From contig NZ_CP096115.1 in the NCBI RefSeq assembly GCF_024662215.1, positions 744,001 through 808,000 on the forward strand: 64,000 bases of DNA, written 5' to 3'. Below, in pieces: positions 11,355 through 62,587 of the stretch. The notes beneath the pieces were generated by a model. The model searched no databases. It worked only from the letters and a program-made list of their open reading frames with translations, and was not told the origin of the DNA. How positions within the stretch are numbered: position 1 is the stretch's first letter; each line of letters begins with the position of its first letter. The translations under genes were made by a program, and so were the position numbers. Source of the stretch: Methanoplanus endosymbiosus (GTDB taxonomy: Archaea; Halobacteriota; Methanomicrobia; Methanomicrobiales; Methanomicrobiaceae).

Positions 11355-11358
11355 AATA

Positions 11359-13023: not shown

Positions 13024-13055
13024 TTTTGATCAATCCCCATGATTAAATTTAATTT

Positions 13056-14531: not shown

Positions 14532-14548
14532 GGCTTAAGGCCCTCCTG

Positions 14549-15580
14549 TTAGCTTGATTCACTTTTCTTATCCGAATCATTGACTTTCTTTATTACTTCG
14601 GTTGACAACTCAGTAACTGCCGGATCTGCAAAGAGACCTGATGATTTGCATACCTGAATTCTGTCCATTACAATCTTAAGAAGCTCAGATTCAGAAGGAA
14701 TAACAAAATCACCAGAGCTTACTACTTTGACATCATCCTTAACAACAAAATCACAGGATGTTCTAAGCCTCAGACCATTGTTGAGCAGTTTCCTGATCTT
14801 GTATAAACCCAGTGCAATAAGAAGTTCTTTTGCCTCTTTAGGAAGACCATATCCTTCAAACAATGAAATATCAAAGTTAAAATATGCAGTAATTCTCTCA
14901 GCAGTATATTCCATACGGTGATAAGGAACATTTCCATAGACATCCTTATCATAATTGTCTGCCCTGATTTTACCAGTTGGATCAAGAGGATTATTCTTAA
15001 CTCCACCTGAAGAAACCTCATTGATTCCCTCTGCTTCAATGAAACCCGTCAGTGCACGCTGAACTTTGACCCTTCCATCTTCAAGATTTGCCATAAAAGC
15101 ACCATGAAGAAGAGAGTTTGAATCATAATAGAGGAGTGCTGACGCAATCTTCTTCCAGTTCAGTGGTTTACCTTTATCATATTCTGCTTTTTTCTTAAAT
15201 TCTTCCTTAAATTCGTCATTGCTGATAATAAACGGAGAATTTATTCTGTGAGCTTCGATCAAAGATGTGGTACTTGCTGAATACTTATCATCATCTACCT
15301 CTCCGGAAAGCTTAGCTCTTATATATGGCAGTCCTTCAAACTCTTCTGCAATTTCTATTCCGGATTCATCAAGGATTGTAGCCTCAAGCCTGTTGGCAAT
15401 TGACTGAGCTGATTCAACAAGGATCATTCTTTTGCCATCCGGCTTTTCGTACACAGCTGCACCCAAATCCGGGAAACCCGTAGGCTGGAACCTGTCACCC
15501 TGGATAACTTTTAAATCAGCTTCGATTAATATTCTTGGAACGTTCTTAAATTTTTCAGAATCTATTGTTACTTTAGTCAT
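14549..15580 (-). CDS. csb1: Csb1 (GSU0053 family), Cas7-like backbone subunit
   Basis: 343 aa. The family is recognised from FQPTGFPDLGAAVY, then EKPDGKRMILVESAQSIANR near the N-terminus and from its fixed place between csx17 and csb2. Csb1 is the Cas7-type protein that coats the crRNA spacer in the type I-G effector complex, present in several copies per complex. A strong ribosome site (GAGGTG) lies 7 nt before the ATG at 15580. It is translated in the same operon 21 nt after csx17. Nothing looks broken. Confidence 0.95.
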   Translation of the reverse strand: MTKVTIDSEKFKNVPRILIEADLKVIQGDRFQPTGFPDLGAAVYEKPDGKRMILVESAQSIANRLEATILDESGIEIAEEFEGLPYIRAKLSGEVDDDKYSASTTSLIEAHRINSPFIISNDEFKEEFKKKAEYDKGKPLNWKKIASALLYYDSNSLLHGAFMANLEDGRVKVQRALTGFIEAEGINEVSSGGVKNNPLDPTGKIRADNYDKDVYGNVPYHRMEYTAERITAYFNFDISLFEGYGLPKEAKELLIALGLYKIRKLLNNGLRLRTSCDFVVKDDVKVVSSGDFVIPSESELLKIVMDRIQVCKSSGLFADPAVTELSTEVIKKVNDSDKKSESS

Positions 15581-15601
15581 TTTTTACACCTCAAATTAAA
15601 T

Positions 15602-37599: not shown

Positions 37600-38592
37600 A
37601 TGATACTTGAAGAGCGGATCACATTTCTCACAGAGGATGCGGCTGAGGAGTTTACAGAATGGCTGAGCGATAATGACTGCAAATCAGAAGTGAGGAAATA
37701 TTCAGACTTTTCTCTGAATATGCTTGCAAGAGGAACTGTAGATGACATAATCAACTGGTGCGATGATATGACTGAGGAGGATGAAGAGCAGTGGGAGGAC
37801 TTTTCTGTCCTGCACGAGTTTAATGAGGACTATAAAGAAGCATTATCTATCCTTATTGCCGGGAAAAAACCCGGAGATCTGCTATATACACATGAGGACT
37901 TTGAGATCTCAACCGTTAAACTTATCGCCAGTGTCTGCCCGGATTTGGAACTGCCGGATGATGTGGAGCTTCCCGGTTATTCATCAGAGACACTTGAAGA
38001 TGAGATATTCAGTGAGGTTCCGCTCTCAATAATCCATACTAACCTTGAAGAAGAGTGTTATGTTAAAGAGTCTGAGAGAGGCTTTATACTCTTTACAGAT
38101 AAAGAACCGGGTGAGATGATAACGGAGACTGACGTTACTTCCTTTGAACTGCCGGATCTAAAGAATTATCCCGGAATAAGCTATGTCTCCGCATTTATCG
38201 CAGATGAGAGCTTTGAGGTATCATTCCGGATGCCGGCGTACCTGGCCATAGAAGCCAATGAACTCGGCAAAATTCTGATTGAACTTGGACTTGATGAAGA
38301 GGATGTTATGGATATTGCAGACAACTTCCGCCTGAAAAGATCCATTCTGACATATGTACTGGGTACTGTTGAAAAATACGGTGAACTTGACGTTGATGAC
38401 CTGAGAAAAAATATCGAGAAGTTATGGAGAGAATCAGGTGTAAAAACCGACAGCAGCACAAAGATAGCCATCACAGCCGGACTTATGAAATCGCTGACCC
38501 AGGAGCTTAAACATGACGGTATTTTAACCGGGGAAGGGGATATGGTTACTTTCTCACCTTCATGGATGGAAAGGCTCAGTACAAAGCTGTAG
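37600..38592 (+). CDS. Unknown acidic protein, paralogue of the gene at 48595
   Basis: 330 aa, rich in Asp and Glu (for example CDDMTEEDEEQWEDFSVL). I recognise no domain. It resembles the 327-aa protein at 48595-49578 across its length: the start (MILEERITFLTEDAAEEF versus MIFDEKFVFYDRESAKDF), GDLLYTHEDF versus GDFLYSHDEL, PLSII in the middle, and a C-terminal helical region ending in TQELKHDGILTGEGD versus ITELKRAGILSGNLN. That last part may be a winged-helix-like fold. Soluble, no signal peptide. Its paralogue sits beside the RiPP maturase; this copy sits before a pilin gene. Function unknown. Confidence 0.75.
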   Translation: MILEERITFLTEDAAEEFTEWLSDNDCKSEVRKYSDFSLNMLARGTVDDIINWCDDMTEEDEEQWEDFSVLHEFNEDYKEALSILIAGKKPGDLLYTHEDFEISTVKLIASVCPDLELPDDVELPGYSSETLEDEIFSEVPLSIIHTNLEEECYVKESERGFILFTDKEPGEMITETDVTSFELPDLKNYPGISYVSAFIADESFEVSFRMPAYLAIEANELGKILIELGLDEEDVMDIADNFRLKRSILTYVLGTVEKYGELDVDDLRKNIEKLWRESGVKTDSSTKIAITAGLMKSLTQELKHDGILTGEGDMVTFSPSWMERLSTKL

Positions 38593-48594: not shown

Positions 48595-49578
48595 ATGATA
48601 TTTGATGAGAAATTTGTTTTTTATGACCGGGAATCTGCCAAAGATTTTATTCTGGTTATGAAAAAATTCGGTGCTAAATGTCGTATAAATGAAGTCCTCC
48701 ATAACGAACCGGAAGATATTATCACCGGAAAAATGGATGACATAAACAGGTGGATTCTTGCAATTGCAGATAACAACGATAGCGACATTAAAAATATTTT
48801 TCTCGCAATGCATGAGAAAAATGAGATAATAAAAGATACAATTGATCAGTATCTAAAAGATAAATCCAAAGGTGACTTCCTGTACTCCCATGATGAACTG
48901 GCAGAAGATGTAACGGAGGTAAGTGAAAGAATGGAGGAGCAGATGCACGGAAAAGACCGGGACAATCCTTATGATCTGATTGACTTACTATCCACATTTA
49001 TTGAGAGTTCGCCATTAAGTATAATTAACAGGGTTCTGGAAGATCAGGGCGTTCTTGAGGAGACTGAAGAGGGATTTTGGCTTAAGGAAAAAATAAGCGG
49101 AGGAGATATAATTTATCAGGTTCCGGAGATAGAAGACAAATATTGTACAGGTCCGGAATTTTCCGGATTAAAACATACAACAATATTTAAACCAATTATA
49201 AAATACGAGATCCCCGTCAATATTATGGATATTATTGACCTTGATATGGATGACATAGGTACTATTATGATGGGATGTGGAATGGATCCAGATGATACGG
49301 CCAATCTGATGTCAGATTATTTATTTAAGAAGACTATTATAGAGCTGATCTTAACGGGAGTTGATGAAAACAGAGGAATATCTACCGAAGAGTTGTCTGC
49401 CGATATTATGGATGAATGGAGCTCTGTATCATATATGGGGGATTTGGATTCCAGACTTTATTTAAATCCGGAAGTCATACCTGCTTTTATAACAGAACTT
49501 AAACGTGCAGGTATATTATCCGGAAATCTCAATAGTATTAAGCCTGCCTTAACTAAAAGCCGTAAAAAAAGAAGATAA
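48595..49578 (+). CDS. Unknown protein coupled to the radical SAM maturase
   Basis: 327 aa, soluble and acidic. No known domain recognised. It resembles the 330-aa protein at 37600-38592 throughout, including the MIFDEKFVFYDRES start, GDFLYSHDEL, SSPLSIINRVLEDQGVLEE and a C-terminal AFITELKRAGILSG segment. Its stop is only 41 nt before the maturase ATG and nothing separates them, so both are likely one transcript from the TATA box at 48562. Possible jobs are leader recognition, immunity or regulation of the peptide pathway; the existence of a paralogue elsewhere argues for a broader role. Function unknown. Confidence 0.75.
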   Translation: MIFDEKFVFYDRESAKDFILVMKKFGAKCRINEVLHNEPEDIITGKMDDINRWILAIADNNDSDIKNIFLAMHEKNEIIKDTIDQYLKDKSKGDFLYSHDELAEDVTEVSERMEEQMHGKDRDNPYDLIDLLSTFIESSPLSIINRVLEDQGVLEETEEGFWLKEKISGGDIIYQVPEIEDKYCTGPEFSGLKHTTIFKPIIKYEIPVNIMDIIDLDMDDIGTIMMGCGMDPDDTANLMSDYLFKKTIIELILTGVDENRGISTEELSADIMDEWSSVSYMGDLDSRLYLNPEVIPAFITELKRAGILSGNLNSIKPALTKSRKKRR

Positions 49579-49619
49579 AATTATTGCAGATAAATAATAA
49601 GATAAAACTGGAGATATTC

Positions 49620-51035
49620 ATGCAATGGTCACGATATAACCGATTATTCCGGTCAGAAAACAAAAGAGGCTACCTTTACAGCATCATGTCCAACACTCTT
49701 TTTGAAGTTGACGAAGTACATTATCAGATCCTTGAAGGGTTTTTGACCGGAAAAACAGATACTGCTCCCTGCAATGAAACTTTTTTAAATATTCTGCATG
49801 AAAAAAACGTCCTGGTAAAACCCGGAGAAGAGAAAAATCTGCTCCAAAACTGCCAGTACATGCGTCAGGCTGCCTGTTTTGACAACACTCATCTTGCCCT
49901 TACTATCTGCCCCACACTCAGCTGCAATTTCCGTTGTCCCTACTGCTTTGAGCAGAGCCAAAACGACAGATCAACCATGAACGGGGATACAACAGACAGG
50001 CTTATTACATTTATTCAGAGTCACCACGATGCCCAACACCTTGATGTGACCTGGTACGGCGGTGAACCTCTTCTTGCATTTGATATTATCTGTGAACTGA
50101 CAGAACGCTTCAAAGACCTTGATCTCCATTATGAAAAAGCAGGACTTGTTACAAACGGCTATCTTTTAGATGAAAATAAGATCTCCCGGTTAAATGAACT
50201 TATGATAAAGTCCATCCAGATAACACTGGACGGTCCGCGGGAGATCCATGATACACGCCGGGTACTTGCCGGCGGTGGTCCCACATATGACCGGATTCTT
50301 GCCAATATCACTGCACTGCTTGATTCAGATTATCAGGGGAGCTTTAAGATCAGGGTCAATATTGACCGTGAGAATATGGACCACTATATCCCGCTTAGGA
50401 ATAGTCTTATGGAAGAGTTCAGAGGAAAGAAGATAACAGTGCAGACCGGACATGTCCAGACGGAGATCACCAGCCCCTATTATAACCGGACCCTTAACAC
50501 AGACGAATTTGATAATTTCAACTTAGGCCTCTTCCGGCAGGAGGGCATACTTCCACCGGGCGGCTTTTATCCGGAAAGTTACCTTGGCAGTGTCTGTCTT
50601 GCCAACCGGCATATGGGATTTGTTGTCGGCCCAAAAGGAGAACTCTATAAGTGCTGGGAAGACCCCGGAAAACCGGAGATGGTTATCGGTTCGGTATATA
50701 ATGATGAACCGGTTACAAATCCCGTTCTTAGAGCACAATATACTGTCGGAACAGACCCATTCTGTGACCCTGAATGCACGGACTGTGAAATGCTTCCCAT
50801 ATGTGGCGGCGGATGTGCCAATAAAAGGCTAAGGGCAAAGGAGTTCGGCGAGGAAGGGCCTGAATACTGCACAGCCTGCAAAAACCACCTGAATGAACAT
50901 CTGGAGGCGTATATCAGGACATTTACGACAAAAGAACTCTGTAAGGACCTTTTTGACACAAAAAAAGAGAAAAAACCGGACCCCGGATACCGTATCATCT
51001 CACCACAGCCGGAAAAAAGAAGCAAAGATGTGTAA
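49620..51035 (+). CDS. Radical SAM/SPASM peptide maturase for Nif11-type precursors
   Basis: 471 aa from the ATG at 49620, which has a Shine-Dalgarno (CTGGAG) 7 nt upstream; a TTG at 49584 is in frame. Radical SAM motif CNFRCPYC (C102, C106, C109) binds the catalytic cluster; WYGGEPLL and QITLDGPREIHD are family motifs. The C-terminal SPASM part has CWEDPG, CDPECTDCEMLPICGGGC and YCTACK for auxiliary clusters. The first ~90 residues look like a winged-helix leader-binding domain. Enzymes of this type make thioether or carbon-carbon cross-links in ribosomal peptides. Five Nif11-leader precursors lie downstream on the other strand, the obvious substrates. The bond formed cannot be read from sequence. 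Confidence 0.92.
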   Translation: MQWSRYNRLFRSENKRGYLYSIMSNTLFEVDEVHYQILEGFLTGKTDTAPCNETFLNILHEKNVLVKPGEEKNLLQNCQYMRQAACFDNTHLALTICPTLSCNFRCPYCFEQSQNDRSTMNGDTTDRLITFIQSHHDAQHLDVTWYGGEPLLAFDIICELTERFKDLDLHYEKAGLVTNGYLLDENKISRLNELMIKSIQITLDGPREIHDTRRVLAGGGPTYDRILANITALLDSDYQGSFKIRVNIDRENMDHYIPLRNSLMEEFRGKKITVQTGHVQTEITSPYYNRTLNTDEFDNFNLGLFRQEGILPPGGFYPESYLGSVCLANRHMGFVVGPKGELYKCWEDPGKPEMVIGSVYNDEPVTNPVLRAQYTVGTDPFCDPECTDCEMLPICGGGCANKRLRAKEFGEEGPEYCTACKNHLNEHLEAYIRTFTTKELCKDLFDTKKEKKPDPGYRIISPQPEKRSKDV

Positions 51036-51127
51036 GGGTGTTAATCAAAACTTTGCCGGTTTACTCATACCTGATATGACATATCATCTAATCAAGACTA
51101 ATCTGTCCATATCACACCATTGCACCA

Positions 51128-51270
51128 TTTTATAGTGCAGAACCTTACGTTTAGGAATAATCTGAATGAAATGAAAATTATTTATAGGCGTGCATTCTAA
51201 TCGCACTACATAGTCTTTAAGCAAACTTTCCGGACTTTTCCGGAAAATTTTGTATTAGACTATAGTTCAA
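51128..51270. repeat. Dispersed palindromic element, long copy 1
   Basis: Begins TTTTATAGTGCAGAACCTTA, holds a small hairpin (GTGCATTCTAATCGCAC) and the nested inverted repeat TAGTCT...AAACTTTCCGGA...TCCGGAAAATTTT...AGACTA. It is ~95% like 54563-54703, and both lie 3' of a precursor gene. A short copy is at 37339. Confidence 0.8.
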
Positions 51271-51310
51271 CATGGGTGAGAATCAATATCAATAAGAATT
51301 CTAATGTATT

Positions 51311-51547
51311 TCACCAGTAATTATGACAAACTGTAATGCAGTCAGGAACGCTCCCACCCGTAACAGCCTTAAGTTCTTCGTCTGAGAGCTGTTCCATCAC
51401 CTGCTCCATCTCTTCTCTGGTGAAATCAAACCCGGCTTCTCTGAGGATTTTATGCCTGGTTTCTGAGTCTTCCTTCTGAATCTTCTCGCAGAAGTCCTTG
51501 TCGGTCTGCATCTTCTTTACAAATTTTTCTGCACTTTCAAGTGACAT
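51311..51547 (-). CDS. Nif11-type RiPP precursor 1
   Basis: 78 aa. The leader (MSLESAEKFVKKMQTDKDFC, then IQKEDSETRHKILREAGFDF) is a Nif11-like leader peptide, ending in LSDEELKAVTGG, the double-Gly cut site for a C39 peptidase. The core is 13 residues, SVPDCITVCHNYW: two Cys three apart, a His, and aromatic end. Its ATG is directly followed upstream by the IS701-like element; the original promoter is now 2 kb away at 53564 because of two insertions. It may therefore be silent or driven from the IS. Nearly identical to precursor 3. Confidence 0.92.
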   Translation of the reverse strand: MSLESAEKFVKKMQTDKDFCEKIQKEDSETRHKILREAGFDFTREEMEQVMEQLSDEELKAVTGGSVPDCITVCHNYW

Positions 51548-51551
51548 ATAT

Positions 51552-53270
51552 CTCTACAATGTCACTTTTAACAGAATAAAGTTGTCCCTTATTCGTTTTT
51601 AGGACTTTGACAACCATTTTTGTTCTAAAATGGATCTAATTTAAATTAAGAATAATTTTACATTAATTTGTGCACCCAAATATTACATTGGAAAGACACA
51701 TATCGTAAAAAAACAAAATGATATGTCGAAGCTGTTAGCTATCTAAATGCATATAGGGTGGTTTAGACTATAGCTTCAACTTACATTTTTTGGGCACTTT
51801 TTCTTTGATTTCGACAATTTTGTTCTCTCTTGGTTTATGCAATTCCGCACTATAATATGGGCAACTTTTTCACTCGTAATAGGATTCAAAGGATATTTAC
51901 ATCGTATTATGAGCTTCATATGATAAATTGTAAGTTCGAATTCTGTCTTACTTGCCAAATTTTTGAAATCAAGCCATAAATAGAACATAGCAAGAATTAC
52001 AAGTGCTATATGGTGATGCCATCCTCTCCATCCTCTAACCTGATAATCATCCATTTTTGCAAGATCCACAGCATCCTGGAAAGAGCGCTCAATCCAGTAC
52101 CTTGAAGCCTGCATCTCTGCTAATTTCTTCAGAGAATTGATAGTAATATCATTACAAAATGAATATTTGTGCACTATTTTGTTATTTTCATCCAACTCTC
52201 TACGAATAAGAAGCAGAACTGGAAGTGGTCTGTTTTCTTTACTATCTATCCTCCAAACTTTTCTGACAATAAATTCTGCTTCCAGTGGACCTTTCGTAGA
52301 GTCTCTGACCTTGATTTTTTCCCAATCATTGGCCAATTTCGCAATTTTTGAAATATAGACTGGTGTACCGTTTAGAACTCTTACTCTGGTTGGTATCCTT
52401 CCTCTTTTGCCTCTCCTTGGTGGAATTCCATATTTTGGCTCTTCCAGATAAACTCGATTTGCTGACTTAACTGAGGCCATATATGTTATTCCCATCTCTT
52501 CAAGTTTCGTCAGCAACTGTGGAATACCCCCGTAGAATCCATCCATACAAACATAACTAAATTTAATGCCCTCCTCTATTGCCCGAACTATCAATTCAAG
52601 GCACAATTCTCCTTTAGTTTTAAAGACTCTGTATTCCTGGGGAACTCCTGCTCTATCACATCTTTCAGAGTCATCGCACCATTCTTTAGGGAGATAAAGC
52701 CTAAAATCAAGAATTATTCTTTTTGCTGCCTTTACATAGCATGAATAGACTCCTACCTGACAGTTGTCAACTTTTCCCACATTTCCGGAATATTGCCTTT
52801 TCACCCCAACTGAATGTTTTCCTTTCTTTTTTGAACCTTTCTCATCAATGACTAATGCACCGTTTTTCCCAACAAAATCATTAACATTTGAATAAATCCA
52901 CTGTGTTATCTTAGAATGATCCCACGGCGAATTTGAGAGAAAATGAGAAAAGGCCTGATTATCTCTTTCGCTTGTACAATCAGAGATCTTTGTAAGGTTA
53001 GCTCTACTTTCAATTGTAAAAAGACCTTTAATACAGTCTATACCAATTGGAAATAGATTATTAGTCTTTGTTTTAAAAAAGTCAATAAAAACCTCTGATT
53101 TAGGTAACTGTCCCAAGTTTGATCGAAAAGTACGAATCCTTTTTGTCAAACTAATTTTATTGTACAGCCTTTCATTTGTACACAAATATAAAATATATAT
53201 TTTAAAGTATTTATATTTTTTTATTTACCTCAGTGCATGCTCGCCCATGTGCTAATTTGACATAGTAGAG
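51552..53270 (-). mobile_element. IS701-like insertion sequence with 4-bp target duplication
   Basis: 1719 bp with inverted ends CTCTACAATGTCA (51552-51564) and TGACATAGTAGAG (53258-53270; one mismatch). ATAT is duplicated on both sides (51548-51551 and 53271-53274). It sits immediately upstream of the start codon of precursor 1. Confidence 0.9.
51776..53185 (-). CDS. IS701-family DDE transposase
   Basis: 469 aa. ALVIDEKGSKKKGKHSVGVK and RQYSGNVGKVDNCQVGVYSC hold the first catalytic Asp and the family signature of IS701-type (DDE_5/SRSO17-like) transposases. FSYVCMDGFYGG gives the second Asp, and RYWIERSFQDAVDLAKMDDY the Glu (E in IERSFQ). It is full length with no break, so the element may still move. 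No other gene is in the element. Confidence 0.9.
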   Translation of the reverse strand: MCTNERLYNKISLTKRIRTFRSNLGQLPKSEVFIDFFKTKTNNLFPIGIDCIKGLFTIESRANLTKISDCTSERDNQAFSHFLSNSPWDHSKITQWIYSNVNDFVGKNGALVIDEKGSKKKGKHSVGVKRQYSGNVGKVDNCQVGVYSCYVKAAKRIILDFRLYLPKEWCDDSERCDRAGVPQEYRVFKTKGELCLELIVRAIEEGIKFSYVCMDGFYGGIPQLLTKLEEMGITYMASVKSANRVYLEEPKYGIPPRRGKRGRIPTRVRVLNGTPVYISKIAKLANDWEKIKVRDSTKGPLEAEFIVRKVWRIDSKENRPLPVLLLIRRELDENNKIVHKYSFCNDITINSLKKLAEMQASRYWIERSFQDAVDLAKMDDYQVRGWRGWHHHIALVILAMFYLWLDFKNLASKTEFELTIYHMKLIIRCKYPLNPITSEKVAHIIVRNCINQERTKLSKSKKKCPKNVS

Positions 53271-53284
53271 ATATGCCAATGGAC

Positions 53285-53545
53285 CTATGGTGTCATTATG
53301 CCGTTGGAAAATATGATTATTTACTCCAATAAATAAGTGGAATGGGAGGGATAAATCCTAAAAACACTATTTTTGTGACAGCAGGTAGTTTTTTGCATGT
53401 AACTCATACTGTGGTATGATATGTCACTACATCATATGATTGTCACCATACAATAATAATGGCATATTAGAAATGCATGAAGAAAATTGGCTACACTGAT
53501 AAGTATTTAGTGAGCCAAAAATCCAACCCTATTTTGACACCATAG
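53285..53545. mobile_element. 261-bp MITE with 11-bp inverted ends and 8-bp target duplication
   Basis: Perfect inverted ends CTATGGTGTCA (53285-53295) and TGACACCATAG (53535-53545), flanked by the direct repeat CAATGGAC (53277-53284 and 53546-53553). No open frame inside. It lies between the IS701-like element and the promoter of precursor 1. The mobilising transposase is not evident in this window. Confidence 0.88.
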
Positions 53546-53563
53546 CAATGGACATTACAACCA

Positions 53564-53575
53564 CCTAAATATTTA
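53564..53575 (-). promoter_or_regulatory. Displaced promoter of precursor 1
   Basis: CTAAATATTTAG and flanks equal the CTTAAATTTTT boxes of the sister precursors. After removing the MITE with one 8-bp repeat (269 bp) and the IS with one 4-bp repeat (1723 bp), the distance to the ATG at 51547 is 25 nt, the same as in copies 2, 3 and 4. Confidence 0.75.
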
Positions 53576-53675
53576 GGTTCAGAGCAGGACAGATCCACGC
53601 CCGTTTAGAACATTAAATGAAAATCTGACCTATCCTAAAGGCACCCATTGTTCAGGAACCTTTGATTCATTTAAC

Positions 53676-53915
53676 CTAAAAATGACAATGGACATAGCAG
53701 TCAGCAACGCCCGAATCGCTCCCGCCTGTAACTGCCTTAAGTTCTTCGTCTGAGAGCTGTTCCATTGCCTTATCCATCTCTTCTCTGGTGAAATCAAACC
53801 CGGCTTCCCTGAGAATTTTATGCCTGGTTTCTGAGTCTTCCTTCTGAATCTTCTCGCAGAAGTCCTTATCTGTCTGCATCTTCTTTACAAATTTTTCCGC
53901 ACTTTCAAGTGACAT
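53676..53915 (-). CDS. Nif11-type RiPP precursor 2
   Basis: 79 aa from the ATG at 53915 (MSLESAEKFVKK); three in-frame upstream codons with a TTG are unlikely because the promoter box lies only 25 nt before the ATG. The leader is the same as in copy 1 and ends ELKAVTGG. The 14-residue core is SDSGVADCYVHCHF: Cys pair three apart with His on both sides of the second Cys, and aromatic end. The core and its downstream DNA are identical to precursor 5 at 55982. Confidence 0.93.
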   Translation of the reverse strand: MSLESAEKFVKKMQTDKDFCEKIQKEDSETRHKILREAGFDFTREEMDKAMEQLSDEELKAVTGGSDSGVADCYVHCHF

Positions 53916-53939
53916 ATATGCCAATGGGCATTACGACCA

Positions 53940-53950
53940 CTTAAACTTTT
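53940..53950 (-). promoter_or_regulatory. TATA-like box of precursor 2
   Basis: Plus strand CTTAAACTTTT; on the minus strand AAAAGTTTAAG, 25 nt before the ATG at 53915, followed upstream by the shared CTCTGAACCT block. Confidence 0.6.
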
Positions 53951-54092
53951 AGGTTCAGAGCAGGACAGAACCGCGCCCGTTTAGAACGTTAAATGAAAAT
54001 CTGACCAGTCCTGCCATAAAAACACACGTCCGGCAGACACCTTTGATTTTCACACTCATAAAGCATTCACAGACATCATAATGTTTTACACA

Positions 54093-54367
54093 CTATCTAT
54101 GCGCTGACAGAACCTGCCGGCAGATGAGTGATTTTAATGGACAGCACAAAAACCACATTTGCCCAGACTCCTTTTCACCCGTAACTGCCTTAAGTTCTTC
54201 TTCTGAGAGCTGTTTCATTGCATTATCCATCTCCTCTCCGGGAAATCAAAATCGGCATCTAAGATGACATTACACCTGTTTTCCTCTATCTTTTTCTGAA
54301 ATTACCCGCAGAAGTCCTTATCAGTCTGCATTTTCGTTACAAATCCTTCTGCACTTTCAGGTGGCAT
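54093..54367 (-). pseudogene. Decayed Nif11-type precursor
   Basis: Starts MPPESAEGFVTKMQTDKDFCG and hits a TAA. Further on, a second frame reads MDNAMKQLSEEELKAVTGEK and goes on to a TAG at 54093. The Gly-Gly site has become Gly-Glu and no Cys-rich core of the usual form remains. Its promoter box (CTTAAATTTTC at 54393) is kept, 26 nt upstream. Confidence 0.8.
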
Positions 54368-54562
54368 ATATAGTTGTGAAGATTTTTGACTGCTTAAATT
54401 TTCTAATCATTTTTCTCTGCCTGAGATCCACCTCCTCTACGGTGAAATAAAATATAGATCAAACGGTTTGTCTTCTAAAATGGAGGTATTGTGGGGGAGA
54501 ATAGTTAAAAACCAGCACTGTAGCCCGGACTACGCGAAAAGCAGCCACGCATATTGCGGTTG

Positions 54563-54703
54563 TTTTATAGTGCAGAACCTTACGTTTAGGAATAATCTGA
54601 ATGAAATGAAGATTATTTATAGGCGTGCATTCTAATCGCACCACATAGTCTTAAGCAAACTTTCCGGACTATTCCGGAAAGTTTGTAATATACTATACTA
54701 ATG
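54563..54703. repeat. Dispersed palindromic element, long copy 2
   Basis: Same as 51128-51270: TTTTATAGTGCAGAACCTTA to AGTTTGTAATATACTATA. It ends 4 nt before the stop of precursor 3. As a possible 3' element it could form a strong hairpin (AAACTTTCCGGA/TCCGGAAAGTTT) after the precursor message. Confidence 0.8.
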
Positions 54704-54707
54704 TATT

Positions 54708-54944
54708 TCACCAGTAATTATGGCAATGTGCAAAGCAGTCAGGAACGCTCCCACCCGTAACAGCCTTAAGTTCTTCGTCTGAGAGCTGTTCCATTGCCTT
54801 ATCCATCTCTTCTCTGGTGAAATCAAACCCGGCTTCCCTGAGGATTTTATGCCTGGTCTCTGAGTCTTCCTTCTGAATTTTCTCACAGAAGTCCTTATCG
54901 GTCTGCATCTTCTTTACAAATTTTTCTGCACTTTCAAGTGACAT
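54708..54944 (-). CDS. Nif11-type RiPP precursor 3
   Basis: 78 aa from the ATG at 54944 (MSLESAEKFVKK). Leader as in the other copies, ending AVTGG. Core SVPDCFAHCHNYW, differing from precursor 1 at three positions (ITV to FAH). Both keep DCxxxCHNYW, so the Cys pair, His and aromatic end are under selection or recently copied. Promoter box 25 nt upstream. Confidence 0.93.
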   Translation of the reverse strand: MSLESAEKFVKKMQTDKDFCEKIQKEDSETRHKILREAGFDFTREEMDKAMEQLSDEELKAVTGGSVPDCFAHCHNYW

Positions 54945-54968
54945 AAACTTCAATTAGTATTATGACCA

Positions 54969-54979
54969 CTTAAATTTTT
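54969..54979 (-). promoter_or_regulatory. TATA-like box of precursor 3
   Basis: AAAAATTTAAG on the minus strand, 25 nt before the ATG at 54944, so the transcript should be leaderless. Confidence 0.65.
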
Positions 54980-55028
54980 AGGTTCAGAGGCACTGTCTAA
55001 AGGTCCAGTGATGAATGATTATTTATAA

Positions 55029-55115
55029 TAAACAGTTCATTTTCCGGTTGATTTGAGCAGGCAAAATCAGTTTCCTACTGATACATCACTGAAAAATCCG
55101 ACTGTGCCGATCCAT
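55029..55115 (+). repeat. Dispersed ~85-nt repeat family, plus-strand copy
   Basis: Matches 22500-22583 (minus strand) and part of 21926-21992. Key blocks: GGTTGATTTGAGCAGG, AATCAGTTTCCTACTGA, CATCACTGAAAAATCCGACT. Confidence 0.6.
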
Positions 55116-55130
55116 CTCCAGTGCCACAAT

Positions 55131-55170
55131 GGCTTTTCATCCGTAACAGCCCTTAGCTCTTTGTCTGTAT
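55131..55170 (-). pseudogene. Tail fragment of another Nif11-type precursor
   Basis: The minus strand codes TDKELRAVTDEKP, a decayed form of SDEELKAVTGG, with no leader start found. It marks a further lost copy. Confidence 0.5.
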
Positions 55171-55596
55171 GCTTGCTTTCAGACTTAGAATAGCATTGGA
55201 AATTATGATTAAATCTTCTGATTCTAAGGATATGAAACTAACAACCGGGGACTTCTTAAGGAAACTTAAGAGGGTGGAGAGAACGGACATTGATTTGGGA
55301 GATGAAATTGAAGTCTGCCACATGAATATGACTGGTGATGTTCGGAAGCAACCTGATGCACTAAACATGAAATCTTTGCTCGTAAATGGAAGGGTCAAAA
55401 AGGAATAGTGCATATTTTTTAGCTATTTGGGTTACTTCCTCTCTTAACTCGCCTGATCCAAGACATAGTGATTAATTAATCACCAGAATATTCAATGTCA
55501 TTTAATCTATTTGGGGACCTAAATCAAAAATATAATGCATAAAATTGGTTGTATTGGGGTTGGGGAAATAAACCTATTGATCATATAATGCTCTGT

Positions 55597-55845
55597 TCAC
55601 GCCCAAAATGCATGCTCGGGAAGGAATCTACGACAGTCTGAACCGGCTCCTCCACCCGTAACAGCCTTAAGTTCTTCATCTGAGAGCTGCTCCATTGCCT
55701 TATCCAGCTCTTCTCTGGTGAAATCAAACCCGGCTTCCCTGAGGATTTTATGCCTGGTCTCTGAGTCTTCCTTCTGAATTTTCTCACAGAAGTCCTTATC
55801 GGTCTGTATCTTCTTTACAAATTTTTCTGCACTTTCAAGTGACAT
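55597..55845 (-). CDS. Nif11-type RiPP precursor 4, variant core
   Basis: 82 aa from the ATG at 55845. Leader intact and the same as the others (one change, KKIQTDKD; ELDKAMEQ), ending AVTGG. The core is different: GAGSDCRRFLPEHAFWA, with only one Cys and a His and Trp near the end. It may be a real variant substrate, or the product of a frameshift after DC. The promoter (CTTAAATTTTT at 55870) is intact. Confidence 0.85.
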   Translation of the reverse strand: MSLESAEKFVKKIQTDKDFCEKIQKEDSETRHKILREAGFDFTREELDKAMEQLSDEELKAVTGGGAGSDCRRFLPEHAFWA

Positions 55846-55869
55846 AAACTTCAATTAGTATTACAACCA

Positions 55870-55880
55870 CTTAAATTTTT
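55870..55880 (-). promoter_or_regulatory. TATA-like box of precursor 4
   Basis: Same box and same 25-nt spacing as for precursor 3; identical flanks (GGTTCAGAG). Confidence 0.65.
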
Positions 55881-55981
55881 AGGTTCAGAGCAGGACAGAT
55901 CCACGCCCATTTAGAACATTAAATGAAAATCTGACCTATCCTAAAGGCACCCATTGTTCAGGAACCTTTGATTCATTCAAC

Positions 55982-56221
55982 CTAAAAATGACAATGGACA
56001 TAGCAGTCAGCAACGCCCGAATCGCTTCCACCCGTAACTGCCTTAAGTTCTTCGTCTGAAAGCTCTTCCATTGCCTTATCCGGCTCTTCTCTGGTGAAAT
56101 CAAACCCGGCTCCCCTGATGATTTTATGCCTGATTTCTGAGTCTTCCTTCTGAATTTTCTCACAGAACTCTTTATCAGTCTGCATCCTCTTTACAAATTC
56201 TTCTGCACTTTCAGGTGGCAT
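55982..56221 (-). CDS. Nif11-type RiPP precursor 5
   Basis: 79 aa, MPPESAEEFVKRMQTDKEFC then HKIIRGAGFDFTREEPDKAM, a leader diverged from the other four. The core SDSGVADCYVHCHF equals that of precursor 2, and the ~200 nt from the leader end to beyond the stop are nearly identical to 53585-53800, pointing to gene conversion or unequal crossing-over. A Pro in the last leader helix (EEPDKAM) is unusual. Its promoter region differs from the other copies. Confidence 0.9.
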   Translation of the reverse strand: MPPESAEEFVKRMQTDKEFCEKIQKEDSEIRHKIIRGAGFDFTREEPDKAMEELSDEELKAVTGGSDSGVADCYVHCHF

Positions 56222-56727
56222 ATATAGTTGTAGAGACTTTTTAGCTCCTTAATCTTTACGATCTCCATAGAACCCCTTTACAGCCATATTCAGGTAATTT
56301 CTGCCGGAATAACACAATAAATCTTAGTAGCATCCGGACAACAGCACCTCAGCCATAACAGTTTTTACGAAAGCGTAAAACCACATAATCTATCACCATA
56401 AGTTATATCCGGAAAATATAAGCATAAAAACCTACTACATATGGATATTACCGGTTCTTACAGTTTCATCACCCGGATGCCGGTTACAGAATGTAAGAAC
56501 ACAGGTGACACTAAGGAATTATTCATAACAATAAGGCAGACCCGGGTACCGGTTACAGTTCTGACATACTGTGTATTATGCCAGATCAGCTGCCATTCTG
56601 AAATAAAAATAAGAACAGTAAAATGTTCAGCCGTCATAAAATAATTTAAAGCCCCCATGGTAAAAATTCTGCTGAACAGCCCCATATCCGGATAATTCAT
56701 ACAGACCACCAAAGGACAGGAAAAAAC
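56222..56727. other. Intergenic region before the RiPP export operon
   Basis: About 500 nt. Contains TATA-like AAAATATAAGC near 56412 and short inverted copies of GGTTCTTACAG/TGTAAGAACA. It should hold divergent promoters for precursor 5 and the exporter genes. No gene recognised. Confidence 0.5.
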
Positions 56728-57348
56728 ATGAGAAAAGACCTGTTTAGAAAAGAACCATTAAAGAGGCTGGCCGCTCCCGACAATACTCAACAGCTCATCG
56801 TTCAGCCCAGGCTGTCCTTATGGATTCTGCTTGCTGCTCTGGCAGTCATACTTATTACAGTGTCATCAGCGTATCTGACCATGACCATATACAGCACAGT
56901 AAACGGCAACGGAATTTTCATAAGCAATTCATCGGACCATGCCCCTAAATCTCCGCTGGATTATGAAGTTCTGCTTTTCATCCCGATAGATGAAGGAAAC
57001 AAAGTATCCACCGGAATGAAAGCACAGATAACTCCGCAGAACATGGACATGGAAGAATATACATACATAAAAGGAACAGTCACCGGCATTTCATCATGGC
57101 CGGTAACAGAAGATGAGATAACAGAAAGACTCAATCATTCAGAACTTGGGGATTACTTCCTGAAAAAAGCCGGAGATCCGGTGTACATAGTAACAGTCTC
57201 TCCCATACAGGACAAAAAAGACCCGGAATCATTTGTTTATTCTGCACAGACAGGCGAAGAACCGGTAATAAAACCCTACTTCATGTGCCACGGACGGATA
57301 ATAACAGATGAAGAGACCGTTCTGGAAAAATTCTTCCCGCCACTATAA
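56728..57348 (+). CDS. NHLM-type bacteriocin secretion protein (HlyD-like), short
   Basis: 206 aa. MRKDLFRKEPLKRLAAPDNT is the typical start of the NHLM-system HlyD-like protein. One membrane helix (LWILLAALAVILITVSSAYL) is followed by a beta domain. The long coiled-coil and lipoyl part of bacterial relatives is missing: the sequence goes from GNGIFI straight to the beta-barrel-like region (DEGNKVSTGMKAQITPQ). That suits an archaeal cell without an outer membrane. It is 15 nt before the C39 ABC transporter gene and forms the export complex with it. Confidence 0.82.
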   Translation: MRKDLFRKEPLKRLAAPDNTQQLIVQPRLSLWILLAALAVILITVSSAYLTMTIYSTVNGNGIFISNSSDHAPKSPLDYEVLLFIPIDEGNKVSTGMKAQITPQNMDMEEYTYIKGTVTGISSWPVTEDEITERLNHSELGDYFLKKAGDPVYIVTVSPIQDKKDPESFVYSAQTGEEPVIKPYFMCHGRIITDEETVLEKFFPPL

Positions 57349-57363
57349 ACAGTAACATATCTT

Positions 57364-59577
57364 ATGAAGTTAATCGATACTAAGTTTATCAATTTTCATA
57401 ACATGATCCGCCCAGCAAAAAGGGTAAAAACTCCGGTAATACTACAGCTTGAGGCAGTAGAATGTGGAGCTGCGGCTCTGGCAATTATTCTTGGCTATCA
57501 TAAACTTTTCCTCCCGCTGGAGAAGGTCCGGGCAGATTGCGGAGTATCACGGGACGGAAGCCAGGCCATTAATATGGTAAAAGCCGCCCGGAAATATGGC
57601 ATGGTGGCAAAGGGGCTTAGAAAAGACGTTGACGGACTAAGAGACCTTGAAATGCCAGTTATACTCCACTGGAACTTCAACCATTTCATAGTCCTTGAAG
57701 GATTTACCGGAGATAAAGCGTACATCAACGACCCAGCCATTGGCAGACGGACAGTAAAGATGGAGGAGCTAAATCAGTCTTTTACAGGAATAGTCCTCAG
57801 CATCACCCCCGGAAACAACTTCAGACCTTCAGGTTCACGGACAAATATCAAAAGCCTGTTAATACCCAAAATAAAGCCTGAAATCATCCCGCTGATATAC
57901 CTAATCATTGCAGGAGTGGCAATGTTAATTCCGGGAATTGCCCTTCCGGTTGCAAACAGTATATTCTTTGATGATATTGTTCTGGCAAACCGCTCATCAC
58001 TGCTGTACCCGCTTCTTTTATACATGAGCTTTTTTGTGGTACTCCAGTTACTGATCAGCTGGGCAAGGGAGACATGCCTTGCACAATGGGAAAACGACCT
58101 GTCATTCAGACTATCAAGGACTTTTTTTCATAAAATATTATTCCTGCCGGTCAGTTTCTTTGATCAGAGGTACGCAGGGGAGATATCATCAAGAGTTGAA
58201 CTAAACAACCAGGTATCAGCGATCATATGCGGGAAAGGTGCAACAGCAGTCCTTGACATCTTCATATCAATAGTCTATCTTATACTGCTCTTCATACTAA
58301 GCACTGCACTCTCAGTTGTAGCCTGCTTCATTGCCATAGGAAACCTCGTATTTTTAAGCTGGATTTCATCAAAAAGAATAGACTTAAGCAGAAAACTCAT
58401 CCTTGAACAGGGAAAGATCAGTGGGGTTGCATACTCCGGAATCGGGATGATCGAGTCGCTTAAAGCCAGCGGAAAAGAATCAGAATTCTTTGAGAGATGG
58501 GCAGGACATCATGCACAGTACATTAATACCGAGCGTTCTGTCTCAAAAACCTCCTCAATGATGGCTATTGTTCCGGTAATGATAAACGGTCTTGGAACAA
58601 CTGCCATCCTTGCTGTAGGAAGCAATCTTATCTTTGCCGGCAGCATCACAATCGGTTTCTTCTTCGCATATCAGGCACTGCTTGCAAATTTCCTGATGCC
58701 AATCCAGAGGCTTATAAACGTAGGAGGGGACTTATCAGAGCTTGAAGGCACACTTCAGAGACTTGCCGATGTTGAGCGCAATATCCCGGACGACAAAAAA
58801 TTATCCATCCTTGATTCGGAGCCCCTGACAGGGAATAAGCAGAGAAAACTGGACGGTTATGTAGAGTTTAAGGATATAACATTTGGCTACAGTCCCCTTG
58901 AAGCTCCGCTGCTGGATAATTTCTCATTTTCACTAAAACCGGGAAGCCGTGTTGCACTGGTAGGGCCTTCAGGATGCGGCAAGAGTACTATTGCCCGTCT
59001 GATGGCCGGACTGTATGAACCATGGTCAGGAGAGATACTCATAGACGGCAAAAAAATCTCTGAAATTCCAAAGCAGCAGCTGTACCTCTCTCTTGCATTC
59101 GTGAATCAGGAGATCTTCATCTTTGAGGGAACAGTCCGGGACAATATTACTTTGTGGGATAAAACCCTTCCGGATGCCAAAATAATCCAGGCTGCAAAGG
59201 ATGCAGAGATACACGACCTGATCTCATCACTTTCAAAAGACTATGACCATCCGGTCTCAGAAGGTGGCCGGGATTTAAGCGGGGGTCAGAAGCAGCGGCT
59301 TGAGATAGCACGGGCAATTGCCAAAGACCCATCCATTCTTGTTCTTGATGAAGCCACCAGTGCCCTTGATGCACTCACTGAAAAACAGATTGAGCATAAT
59401 CTAAGGAAAAGAGGCTGTACATGTCTTATAATTGCTCACCGGCTGAGTACTATCCGGGACTGTGACAATATTATTGTCCTTGATAAAGGTAAGATCGTTG
59501 AAGAGGGAACACATCAGCAGCTTATGAAGAATAAAGGGCCATATTTCCGGCTCATAACAGCTGAAGAGGAGGCATGA
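57364..59577 (+). CDS. Peptidase-containing ABC transporter (C39, NHLM type 1)
   Basis: 737 aa. C39 peptidase at ~15-150: catalytic C34 (LEAVECGAAALA), H107 (HWNFNHFIVLEG) and D123 (YINDPAIG), all present. Six-helix membrane domain at ~170-470. ABC domain at ~500-735: Walker A VGPSGCGKST, Q-loop FVNQEIF, signature DLSGGQKQR, Walker B ILVLDEATSALD, H-loop IIAHRLST. It cuts precursors after the TGG and exports the modified cores. It overlaps the next transporter gene by 4 nt (ATGA). Confidence 0.95.
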   Translation: MKLIDTKFINFHNMIRPAKRVKTPVILQLEAVECGAAALAIILGYHKLFLPLEKVRADCGVSRDGSQAINMVKAARKYGMVAKGLRKDVDGLRDLEMPVILHWNFNHFIVLEGFTGDKAYINDPAIGRRTVKMEELNQSFTGIVLSITPGNNFRPSGSRTNIKSLLIPKIKPEIIPLIYLIIAGVAMLIPGIALPVANSIFFDDIVLANRSSLLYPLLLYMSFFVVLQLLISWARETCLAQWENDLSFRLSRTFFHKILFLPVSFFDQRYAGEISSRVELNNQVSAIICGKGATAVLDIFISIVYLILLFILSTALSVVACFIAIGNLVFLSWISSKRIDLSRKLILEQGKISGVAYSGIGMIESLKASGKESEFFERWAGHHAQYINTERSVSKTSSMMAIVPVMINGLGTTAILAVGSNLIFAGSITIGFFFAYQALLANFLMPIQRLINVGGDLSELEGTLQRLADVERNIPDDKKLSILDSEPLTGNKQRKLDGYVEFKDITFGYSPLEAPLLDNFSFSLKPGSRVALVGPSGCGKSTIARLMAGLYEPWSGEILIDGKKISEIPKQQLYLSLAFVNQEIFIFEGTVRDNITLWDKTLPDAKIIQAAKDAEIHDLISSLSKDYDHPVSEGGRDLSGGQKQRLEIARAIAKDPSILVLDEATSALDALTEKQIEHNLRKRGCTCLIIAHRLSTIRDCDNIIVLDKGKIVEEGTHQQLMKNKGPYFRLITAEEEA

Positions 59578-62426
59578 CCCGGATGAACTCAGAATCAGAT
59601 GCGGTAAATAAATACAAAACCGGCGAAGAGGTAGTTTTTTCCAATCCGTCAGTCTGCTACCGTGTTGTAAAAGGCAGCCTCATCGTCTATATCACACAAC
59701 ATTATAGCAATTCATGGGGAAGGCACCTGCCAGGTCTTTATCTTGAACCGGGAGAGTCGGTTTTTGGATTTATTCCCGGAAATGTGGGTCTGACAGCAGT
59801 TTTCCAGACATATTCAGAGATAGAAGAGACTGACATAGAGAATTTAGATGCTCCCAGTGAAGATACTCTCCGGAGATGGGCTGAATGGATCGGCCACCCC
59901 CTTCTGACAGATAATAAACAGTCATATCCGGGCCATATTTCTTTGAAATCCGGAATAAAAGAGATAACAGAAGGGCAGCAGATCAGATTTAACTTAATGG
60001 AAGAACCCTTCCTTTTATGCAGGGTTACTAAGGGAACACTCCGGGATACAATCTCGGATATGACATTCACAGATGAAACAGGTATATTTCCGGTTCTGAG
60101 CAACACGGTACTGTATGCAGCATCTGATGTTTCACTGGAGATACTGCTTCCTGAAACAGAGACGATAAATATTGACATCACGCTATTTAACAGCACCTGC
60201 AGGGAATGGATGCTCTCAAGGGTTACTGCCAGAAGCAAAAAATATCTGAATGACGAAGAGAAACGGATTAATGCCTGGATTACACAGGAGGAGGAGATCA
60301 ATGAGCGTATTATTCATAAGTCCTCTGAACCGGAGGGAAGCAATAATCCACTCTGGCCGGCTTTTTCACGGGTTTTAAGGGAAATTGGCATACCGGATGA
60401 GGATTGTTCCCCTCCTAAGCAGCATGCACCGGTCAAAGATGAAAAGGAGGTATTCACCGAGCTTATCCGGATGGCTGAACATTCCGGTGTCAGGATACGA
60501 AGGGTAGGACTCACATATAAGTGGTGGAAAGAAGATTGCGGACCACTTCTTGTGACTACAGAGGACGGGACCATGCTTGCGGCTATTGCAGACAGACCGG
60601 GACGCTATACTCTCTACTCCGGCAATGATCCGGTGGCGAAGAACCATGAGGCAGGAAATATAGCCCTTTCTCCAACCGCTTATATGCTGTACCCTACATT
60701 TCCGGACCGGAAGCTTTCTTTTACAGACATTTTTATGTTTCTGTACAGGGCTGTCTGGAAGCGGGATATTCTGTTTTTACTGGTCTTTGGAATGATTGCA
60801 GGAGTTTTAACCACTGCAATACCTCTTGCAACCGGACTTGTTTTTAATAATGCAATACCGCACCATGACTATCCTCTGTTTCAGGCGATAATTCTTGTAC
60901 TCTTTATGAGTGTGATCTCGTCTGCACTCTTTCAGCTGGCACGGGAGATCGCAACCATACGGATGGAAGGGCGGATCGGCAGTGTATTTGAAGGAGCGGT
61001 ATGGGACAGGCTGTTAAAACTGCCGCCGTCTTTTTTCCGGAACTATAACTCCGGAGATCTTGCTTTAAGAGCAGGAATTGTTGATGAGATAAGAGAACTC
61101 ATCTCCGGCGTTACAGTTACGGTGTTATTCGGGGCTGTATTCTCGGTCTTTAATATCATACTTATGTTTGCCATATACCCTGATGTTGCCCTGTATTCAG
61201 TTCTTCTCGTTGGTGGGTTCTTCCTTTTAACTGTGGCAATTGGTTATATCAGTGTCAGATACAGACAGAGAATGCTTGATCTGCGGGGGCATCTTGGAGG
61301 AGTATCATTTCAGATACTATCAGGAATTACAAAGATAACTGCTGCCGGAGCACAGAACCGGGCATATGTCTGGTGGGAGAAGGAATTTAAAAAGCAGATG
61401 GACTATAAACTAAAGGTCAGCACCTGCAATGCCTATATCCGGGTATTGACTGTTTTCTGGCCCGGTCTTCTGACGATACTGGTCTTTGCCCTTACCGGCA
61501 GTGCTCTTTCTGTTGTACATCCTGATCAGGATCACGGCTGGTTCCTTGCGTTTTATGCTGCGGTCGGGGCATTTTCCGTAGCATTTACCGGTCTTGCCGA
61601 GGCATCGGTTATGATGTGGAATGTCAGGCCAATGTGGGACTGGATAAAACCCATTATCACTTCAGAGACTGAGGTGAACAGCGGTCATATTTCACCGGGA
61701 GTACTCTCAGGTGCTGTGGAACTGAACCATGTCAGTTTCAGATATTCACAGAATAGTCCGCTTATTCTTGATGATGTCTCCATATCTGTCAATCCCGGTG
61801 AGTTCGTGGCAATAGTCGGTCAGTCCGGCAGTGGCAAATCCACCCTGCTCAGAATACTACTTGGGTTTGAAAGACCGTTTTTAGGGTCTGTAGTATATGA
61901 CCAAAAAAGGCTTGCCAATCTAAATGTACGTGAGGTCAGAAAACAGATTGGAGTCGTTATCCAGGATGAAAGCCTGATGTCAGACAGTATCCTGAATAAT
62001 ATTGCCGGATCGCGATCAATTTCAATGGAAGAGGCCTGGGAGGCTGCTGAAATGGCAGGTATAGATGAGGACATAAGGGAGATGCCTATGCAGATGCACA
62101 CCATTATCAGTGAGGGATCGGGAAATATTTCAGGAGGACAGAAGCAGCGGATCCTGATTGCACGTGCCATAGCTTTTAGGCCCGGAATTATGTTCCTGGA
62201 TGAAGCGACAAGTGCACTTGATAATACCACTCAGAAAAAGGTCATGGAGAGCTTAAAGCAGCTCAATCTGACACGGATTGTAATTGCCCACCGGTTGTCG
62301 AGTATAAAGGGTGCTGACCGGATTTATGTCCTTGATAAAGGGAAAATTGCCGAGGCGGGCACTTATGAGGAACTGATTCAGAAGGGTGGTATATTCTCGG
62401 ATCTTGCAAGGCATCAACTTATATGA
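59574..62426 (+). CDS. ABC transporter of the NHLM export system (type 2)
   Basis: 950 aa. The first ~380 residues are a soluble region found in NHLM-type partner transporters, including a cyclic-nucleotide-like beta barrel (NPSVCYRVVKGSLIVYITQH). It lacks the C39 Cys. A membrane domain (~390-680) and an ABC domain follow: Walker A VGQSGSGKST, signature ISGGQKQR, Walker B IMFLDEATSALD, H-loop VIAHRLSS. In bacterial clusters it pairs with the C39 transporter as a heterodimer. Translation is coupled to the upstream gene. Complete. Confidence 0.93.
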   Translation: MTRMNSESDAVNKYKTGEEVVFSNPSVCYRVVKGSLIVYITQHYSNSWGRHLPGLYLEPGESVFGFIPGNVGLTAVFQTYSEIEETDIENLDAPSEDTLRRWAEWIGHPLLTDNKQSYPGHISLKSGIKEITEGQQIRFNLMEEPFLLCRVTKGTLRDTISDMTFTDETGIFPVLSNTVLYAASDVSLEILLPETETINIDITLFNSTCREWMLSRVTARSKKYLNDEEKRINAWITQEEEINERIIHKSSEPEGSNNPLWPAFSRVLREIGIPDEDCSPPKQHAPVKDEKEVFTELIRMAEHSGVRIRRVGLTYKWWKEDCGPLLVTTEDGTMLAAIADRPGRYTLYSGNDPVAKNHEAGNIALSPTAYMLYPTFPDRKLSFTDIFMFLYRAVWKRDILFLLVFGMIAGVLTTAIPLATGLVFNNAIPHHDYPLFQAIILVLFMSVISSALFQLAREIATIRMEGRIGSVFEGAVWDRLLKLPPSFFRNYNSGDLALRAGIVDEIRELISGVTVTVLFGAVFSVFNIILMFAIYPDVALYSVLLVGGFFLLTVAIGYISVRYRQRMLDLRGHLGGVSFQILSGITKITAAGAQNRAYVWWEKEFKKQMDYKLKVSTCNAYIRVLTVFWPGLLTILVFALTGSALSVVHPDQDHGWFLAFYAAVGAFSVAFTGLAEASVMMWNVRPMWDWIKPIITSETEVNSGHISPGVLSGAVELNHVSFRYSQNSPLILDDVSISVNPGEFVAIVGQSGSGKSTLLRILLGFERPFLGSVVYDQKRLANLNVREVRKQIGVVIQDESLMSDSILNNIAGSRSISMEEAWEAAEMAGIDEDIREMPMQMHTIISEGSGNISGGQKQRILIARAIAFRPGIMFLDEATSALDNTTQKKVMESLKQLNLTRIVIAHRLSSIKGADRIYVLDKGKIAEAGTYEELIQKGGIFSDLARHQLI

Positions 62427-62587
62427 ATATCTGAAAATACCCGCAATATCCGGCATGTGATCTGTCAATATCTGCCGGATATATAAATCCCATGCTCTTC
62501 TACCGGATGCTTACGAAATGAGAACAGAAGATAATATGTACCGGAAGTTTACAGAAATATTACTTAAAGGAGAGGACATTGCATAAG

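Follow-up and report, generated by a model that had tools for sequence, protein, structure and literature searches.

A gene cluster in the archaeon Methanoplanus endosymbiosus probably encodes a horizontally acquired pathway for ribosomally synthesized and posttranslationally modified peptides (RiPPs), in which several related precursors would undergo leader-guided modification of their cores, cleavage after a double glycine (GG), and export. The cluster lies in a 64,000-nucleotide stretch of contig NZ_CP096115.1 (positions 744,001 to 808,000; here called the window) and combines Nif11-type precursors with a radical S-adenosylmethionine (SAM)/SPASM maturase and a three-gene NHLM exporter. Judged from the sequence, the most likely product is a peptide of 13 to 17 residues that carries a Cys thioether and is exported following double-glycine cleavage. 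The machinery is of known kinds; what is new is the host, the uncharacterized maturase clade, and the reduced adaptor of the exporter. The original prediction for this DNA, that an archaeon has a RiPP pathway served by a dedicated NHLM exporter, is borne out by the protein families and by Nif11 linkage in relatives.

Precursors and their cores

All five intact precursors carry a Nif11 leader according to the profile TIGR03798 (62.5 to 68.3 bits and E values of 3e-17 to 5e-19, against a curated cutoff of 32.3 bits), and there were no further Nif11 matches in the whole 3.16-Mb genome. The leader is 65 residues long and ends in VTGG in each of the five, in agreement with the Nif11-like leaders ending in TGG that had been predicted. 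Leader codons of P2 and P3 show 9 synonymous and 0 nonsynonymous differences, and synonymous changes predominate among the leaders of P1 to P4, so the leaders appear to be under purifying selection.

The cores that follow the GG comprise 13 to 17 residues, with three of the form SxxxDC and one beginning GAGSDC. Common to every core are a DC, a His further on, and an aromatic residue at the end or one position from it; the endings HNYW, HF, and FW place aromatics next to His or Cys in all of them. There is thus at least one Cys per core, always within DC, so that Asp directly precedes the first Cys in each, and P4 alone has no second Cys. The predicted combination of DCxxxCH with an aromatic end stands for four of the five genes, which amount to three distinct cores because those of P2 and P5 are identical, and fails for P4, which has DCRRFLPEHAFWA instead. 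The cores of P2, P3, and P5 contain an extra His.

The maturase

The maturase open reading frame opens at a TTG (49584), and we place the start at the ATG at 49620, which is backed by an upstream GGAG and by homologues beginning M-[QEK]-W-S. The radical SAM motif CxxxCxxC (Cys102, Cys106, and Cys109) and the SPASM cysteines (C326, C345, C386, C389, C395, C399, and C417) are invariant among 13 homologues, so the complete set of cluster cysteines that had been read from the sequence is confirmed; a GGE motif is also present. In an AlphaFold2 model (predicted local distance difference test score [pLDDT], 87; predicted template modeling score, 0.86), residues 1 to 65 form a predicted beta3-alpha3 domain (pLDDT, ~90) that resembles a RiPP recognition element (RRE). 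The maturase aligns over its full length to CteB, which carries an N-terminal RRE (PMC8326336). CteB (5why/5wgg) is also the top PDB match by both sequence (E = 3e-30) and fold (template modeling score, 0.6). Other fold matches were SuiB (C-C bond), EpeE (epimerase), anSME, and TigE, for the last of which a literature search gave no paper.

The nearest named profile families, Clo7bot, TIGR04463, and CefB, match over the whole length (231 to 237 bits for the first two), and their substrates are Cys-containing peptides. The maturase differs from them in being linked to Nif11 precursors and in scoring far under their cutoffs of 525 to 600: the best NCBIfam score was that of TIGR04334 (Clo7bot; 237 bits, cutoff 600), and TIGR04463 (231 of 525) and CefB (205 of 600) likewise fell short. 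TIGR04064, the nif11-like peptide maturase, is also a radical SAM family acting on Nif11-type precursors, but it matches in the core domain only (89 bits, cutoff 519), which marks the present enzyme as another lineage. The four closest relatives of the maturase are under all NCBIfam cutoffs as well (189 to 230 bits). By these scores the maturase, like its nearest relatives, falls outside every named NCBIfam family, and no member of its branch is characterized by experiment.

The exporter and its short adaptor

ABC1 and ABC2 both exceed their curated cutoffs (TIGR03796, 961 against 853 bits; TIGR03797, 784 against 709 bits), and with the precursors also over theirs, the three sets of scores are therefore far beyond chance. 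ABC1 retains the C39 peptidase residues Q28, C34, H107, and D123, and the predicted three-gene exporter with an intact Cys/His/Asp triad (C34, H107, and D123) is in place. The third component, the HlyD-like adaptor, does not reach the TIGR03794 cutoff (94.4 against 156.2 bits) and is homologous but shortened: it aligns only at the N-terminal membrane anchor and at profile positions 294 to 418, with ~60 to 290 missing. Its layout is a cytoplasmic N terminus, one transmembrane helix (residues 29 to 47), and a C-terminal domain; the lipoyl domain and the coiled-coil hairpin are absent. Among plasmid records, only NHLP secretion proteins match it, in their C-terminal part and at 25 to 44% identity. 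No solved structure matched the HlyD-like profile, and an AlphaFold2 model built from two sequences (pLDDT, 41) was left unused.

Alignment of the adaptor with bacterial forms of 465, 325, and 170 aa, of which the 465-aa Peptococcaceae form is full length, upholds the predicted lack of the long hairpin. The original prediction had gone further and saw in this loss an apparent adaptation to an archaeal envelope, in effect an exporter re-engineered specifically for it. Of the archaeal HlyD-like proteins, the two with a complete sequence (206 aa here and 203 aa in a second methanogen, G128, below) lack the lipoyl domain and hairpin, which would suit that idea. However, a Coriobacteriaceae (Actinomycetota) metagenome-assembled genome (MAG) with adjoining NHLM ABC1 and ABC2 encodes a 170-aa HlyD protein with the same losses, and in a Selenomonas MAG the protein is intermediate, at 325 aa, with most of the hairpin gone. 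Because shortened forms thus occur outside archaea, the loss is not archaeal specific, and we regard an adaptation to the archaeal envelope as improbable. In this small sample, a missing hairpin fits single-membrane cells.

Extent and gene content of the island

DNA identity to the sister species Methanoplanus limicola (85 to 87%) stops at 49578, the stop codon of gene 48595-49578, and restarts at 62586 in an acetyltransferase gene, which therefore places the cluster in a variable island of ~13 kb (Table 1). M. limicola lacks the RiPP cluster and has at the same site a type I restriction-modification system (HsdR/HsdS/HsdM-like, by eye). The cluster had been predicted to start at 48595; its start is at ~49,579, and the first gene is resident and multicopy. 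We ruled out 48595-49578 as a member since it has an orthologue in the clusterless M. limicola; its family has five matches in this genome and six in M. limicola, and its product has no Pfam or NCBIfam match. Gene 37600-38592 of the window belongs to the same multicopy Methanoplanus protein family (no Pfam), and in one further member of the order a radical SAM gene has a distant copy upstream of it (L023:6872-7798).

The precursor genes (51311 to 56221) run on the minus strand between the plus-strand maturase and exporter (56728 to 62426); the predicted set of five precursors is retained, all intact, with its strand corrected. Missed earlier were the disrupted precursor (54093 to 54367) and the DDE_5 transposase (51776 to 53185). 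The island contains the maturase, precursors, transposase, and exporter only, with no Lan synthetase; no immunity gene was recognized in the cluster, and no Rfam family matched in the region.

Table 1. Features of the island and its left flank (window coordinates)
Feature	Coordinates	Strand	Match or remark
Variable island	49579..62585	.	Bounded by breaks in similarity to M. limicola
Gene of unknown function, resident flank	48595..49578	+	Orthologue in M. limicola, 81% identical; outside cluster
Radical SAM/SPASM peptide maturase, 471 aa	49620..51035	+	PF04055, 6e-17
Precursor P1, Nif11 leader, core SVPDCITVCHNYW	51311..51547	-	TIGR03798, 67.1 bits
DDE_5 transposase within precursor array, outside pathway	51776..53185	-	PF13546, 3e-47
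Precursor P2, core SDSGVADCYVHCHF	53676..53915	-	TIGR03798, 66.8 bits
Disrupted precursor (pseudogene), stop in leader	54093..54367	-	TIGR03798, 19.5 bits; 1 TAA
Precursor P3, core SVPDCFAHCHNYW	54708..54944	-	TIGR03798, 66.9 bits
Precursor P4, core GAGSDCRRFLPEHAFWA, single Cys	55597..55845	-	TIGR03798, 68.3 bits
Precursor P5, diverged leader, core same as P2 (SDSGVADCYVHCHF)	55982..56221	-	TIGR03798, 62.5 bits
NHLM HlyD-like adaptor, 206 aa	56728..57348	+	TIGR03794, 7e-27
NHLM ABC1, C39 double-glycine peptidase + permease + ATPase, 737 aa	57364..59577	+	TIGR03796, 961 bits; PF03412, 4e-34
NHLM ABC2, permease/ATPase, 950 aa	59574..62426	+	TIGR03797, 784 bits

A dispersed repeat of ~140 bp lies downstream of two precursors (54545 to 54705 and 51128 to 51265) and has no Rfam match; a third strong copy is found elsewhere in the genome, and there are at least a dozen partial copies in M. 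limicola. Elsewhere in the window (7200 to 20411), a long clustered regularly interspaced short palindromic repeat (CRISPR) array with the repeat GCTTCAATGGAGCCACATCTTTTCAGATGTGGAAAG accompanies a Cas4-Cas1 fusion, GSU0053 (Csb1), and Cas3, and the gene content resembles that of a type I-G system, here in an archaeal genome. In M. limicola, CRISPR repeats were reported absent (PMC4149034).

Relatives and origin

Related maturases occur in 6 of the 232 genomes of the order. For the precursors, 394 Halobacteriota genomes were searched with the Nif11 profile in place of the proposed TGG...DCxxxCH pattern, the profile being more sensitive. Nif11 leaders were found in three, and the same three have NHLM ABC1 above its cutoff: this genome, a lake-sediment Methanomicrobiales MAG (G128), and G125. 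On these counts such pathways are rare among archaea. The closest maturases in GTDB are those of G128 (60% identity) and of a Thermoleophilia and a Fibrobacter MAG (52 to 54%), followed by a deltaproteobacterial MAG (38%) and Bacteroidales enzymes (34 to 38%). Nif11 precursors adjoin the maturase in all four of the G128, Thermoleophilia, Fibrobacter, and deltaproteobacterial MAGs, with 14 beside the deltaproteobacterial gene, and at least one Bacteroidales enzyme (L051) has before it a small peptide with a double glycine that is not of the Nif11 type. This association had been set beforehand as a test of the prediction, and it held at the window and at the four closest Nif11-linked loci.

In the maturase tree, the two archaea and the Thermoleophilia and Fibrobacter MAGs form a four-member clade (Shimodaira-Hasegawa-like approximate likelihood ratio test support, 99) nested in a bacterial family. 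The simplest reading is that the pathway was acquired from bacteria by transfer, with the reservation that the bacterial loci come from MAG bins. Base composition gave no clear shift that would mark transfer and was dropped as a sign of it. The maturase of G140 groups with Peptococcaceae and, on this placement, is a second, separate archaeal acquisition; at that locus (L021:7839-9597), an NHLP-like precursor is followed by the maturase, which is Clo7bot-like (442 bits to TIGR04334).

Several further loci came to light. G128 has a second archaeal NHLM operon (contig C14; L043:1061-10015). Besides ABC2, ABC1, and a 203-aa HlyD protein, it encodes a protein with a YcaO domain, a 367-aa protein of unknown kind, and a Nif11 precursor whose core is different (TWHPNCTKDGHCGQTC...), a gene content suggesting that a methanogen makes a Nif11 peptide modified by YcaO. 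Another G128 contig (C114; L040:7885-17744) has six Nif11 precursors with Cys-rich TWHP... cores, and their neighbors are two radical SAM proteins in tandem and a protein of 731 aa that resembles FAD/amine oxidases. In a Methanomicrobiaceae genome (G112; L022:6988-16369), a small Cys-rich open reading frame (GSGHCDHTDPEGCSSSLLGCC...) precedes a tandem run of seven radical SAM/SPASM maturase genes.

Comparison with known systems

The cluster shares its leader family (TIGR03798), its exporter families (TIGR03794, TIGR03796, and TIGR03797), and the presence of several precursors per genome with the Nif11/NHLP systems linked to NHLM export (Haft, Basu and Mitchell 2010, PMC2887384). It differs from them in its archaeal host, in an adaptor without lipoyl domain and hairpin, and in its modifying enzyme, which is a radical SAM/SPASM protein here and a lanthionine or thiazole/oxazole-modified microcin synthase there. 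With the SCIFF enzyme CteB and other ranthipeptide (radical non-alpha thioether) synthases, its maturase shares the radical SAM and SPASM domains, with a predicted RRE-like domain in the place of their RRE, but identity to CteB is ~21%, SCIFF precursors differ in their leaders and contain six cysteines, and the linkage proposed here is read from genes. A Peptococcaceae locus (BRH_c8a; L055) has an NHLM exporter and a related maturase (31%) in the same layout, together with a double-glycine precursor whose short CxxxC core ends in an aromatic residue (SCKDFCVHDIF); its leader, however, is NHLP rather than Nif11, its HlyD protein is a full-length 465 aa, and its maturase sits on another branch.

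Proposed pathway and alternatives

In the pathway that we propose, each precursor would be made with its 65-residue Nif11 leader, which the RRE-like N-terminal domain of the maturase would hold. Family and fold suggest that the maturase then modifies the 13- to 17-residue core by means of its radical SAM cluster and the pair of auxiliary clusters in its SPASM domain. A core Cys may become joined by a thioether to a neighboring residue, with the invariant Asp before the first Cys as candidate acceptor and an expected loss of 2 Da per bond. Because Asp precedes the first Cys in every core, and because thioether enzymes of this kind join Cys to Asp with broad tolerance of spacing (PapB; PMC9413430) or to an upstream Asn (the NxxcA system; PMC8326336), a Cys-to-Asp or Cys-to-neighbor thioether is our leading guess, at roughly even chances. 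ABC1, whose catalytic residues are in place, would cut after the GG, and the core would be exported through the single cytoplasmic membrane by ABC1, ABC2, and the short membrane-anchored adaptor. Since the paralogous precursors have nearly constant leaders but cores that differ, one enzyme could yield several related peptides. The released peptide probably works outside the cell, against neighbors or as a signal to them.

Several points weigh against this proposal. The close structural relatives of the maturase include enzymes of other chemistry (SuiB, EpeE, and anSME); the core motif is not common to the closest relatives, the archaeal MAG core being TERGGGPRWPGCWFLV and the cores at L050 lacking Cys; and the array, with its pseudogene and transposase, may be partly decayed. 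The "cross-linked" product of the original prediction likewise stays an inference: the fold of this enzyme family supports epimerization and C-C bond formation too, and fold alone is not decisive on the reaction because SuiB and EpeE match as well. It is possible, then, that the enzyme installs a C-C or aromatic (cyclophane-type) link at the terminal aromatics, or epimerizes the core, and that the Cys residues are free thiols or form a disulfide. The aromatics adjoining His or Cys at every core end would suit this, as would weak similarity to the cyclophane-forming families YhhB, FxsB, and AmcB. We nevertheless consider it unlikely, though far from negligible, as the thioether enzyme CteB is the best match by sequence and fold, Cys-rich peptides are the substrates of the closest NCBIfam families, and Cys is conserved throughout the cores, together with only the Asp before it, a His further on, and an aromatic residue. 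Similarly doubtful, yet worth entertaining, is a new radical SAM class of secreted archaeal peptide: a maturase from a clade that spans methanogens and some bacterial phyla would form an unseen link on short DC...H-aromatic cores, and the products would leave by a minimal NHLM exporter whose adaptor is without its periplasmic part. The earlier claim that the cores match no known class does not settle this, as a new class is not derivable from sequence without chemistry.

The cluster might also be recently acquired and decaying, with its product no longer made. Its absence from M. limicola, the transposase and disrupted precursor, and the diverging P5 leader, which has a Pro within a helix, are consistent with this. 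We find it quite improbable, as the enzymes (maturase, C39 peptidase, and the two ATPases) are intact and keep every catalytic residue, five precursors are intact, and synonymous change is in excess in the leaders. Alternatively, the peptide could bind a metal or cofactor and be exported as a chelator, CxxxCH being similar to noncanonical heme- or metal-binding motifs; DCxxxCH in four of five precursors and the added His in three would favor such a role. However, P4 retains its leader though its second Cys is gone, the motif is missing from the cores of relatives, and the heme idea draws on motif resemblance alone. The island has no metal uptake gene, nor was a gene for cytochrome maturation noted in the cluster, and we hold a chelator to be very unlikely.

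Significance

The structurally solved archaeal RiPPs named in two studies are lanthipeptides (PMC12144867 and PMC10105419), and a survey of archaeal RiPPs lists radical SAM classes as predictions only (PMC12144867). In the literature that we searched, no methanogen was described with a radical SAM cluster of the Nif11/NHLM kind. The present cluster is compact, with all steps from precursor to export present and with bacterial and archaeal comparison loci at hand, and it therefore makes archaeal radical SAM peptide chemistry directly testable. Its short adaptor, in turn, offers a natural minimal NHLM exporter. M. endosymbiosus lives inside a ciliate (PMC3413206), and if the proposed pathway is true, a peptide secreted by this ciliate-dwelling archaeon would be of added interest.

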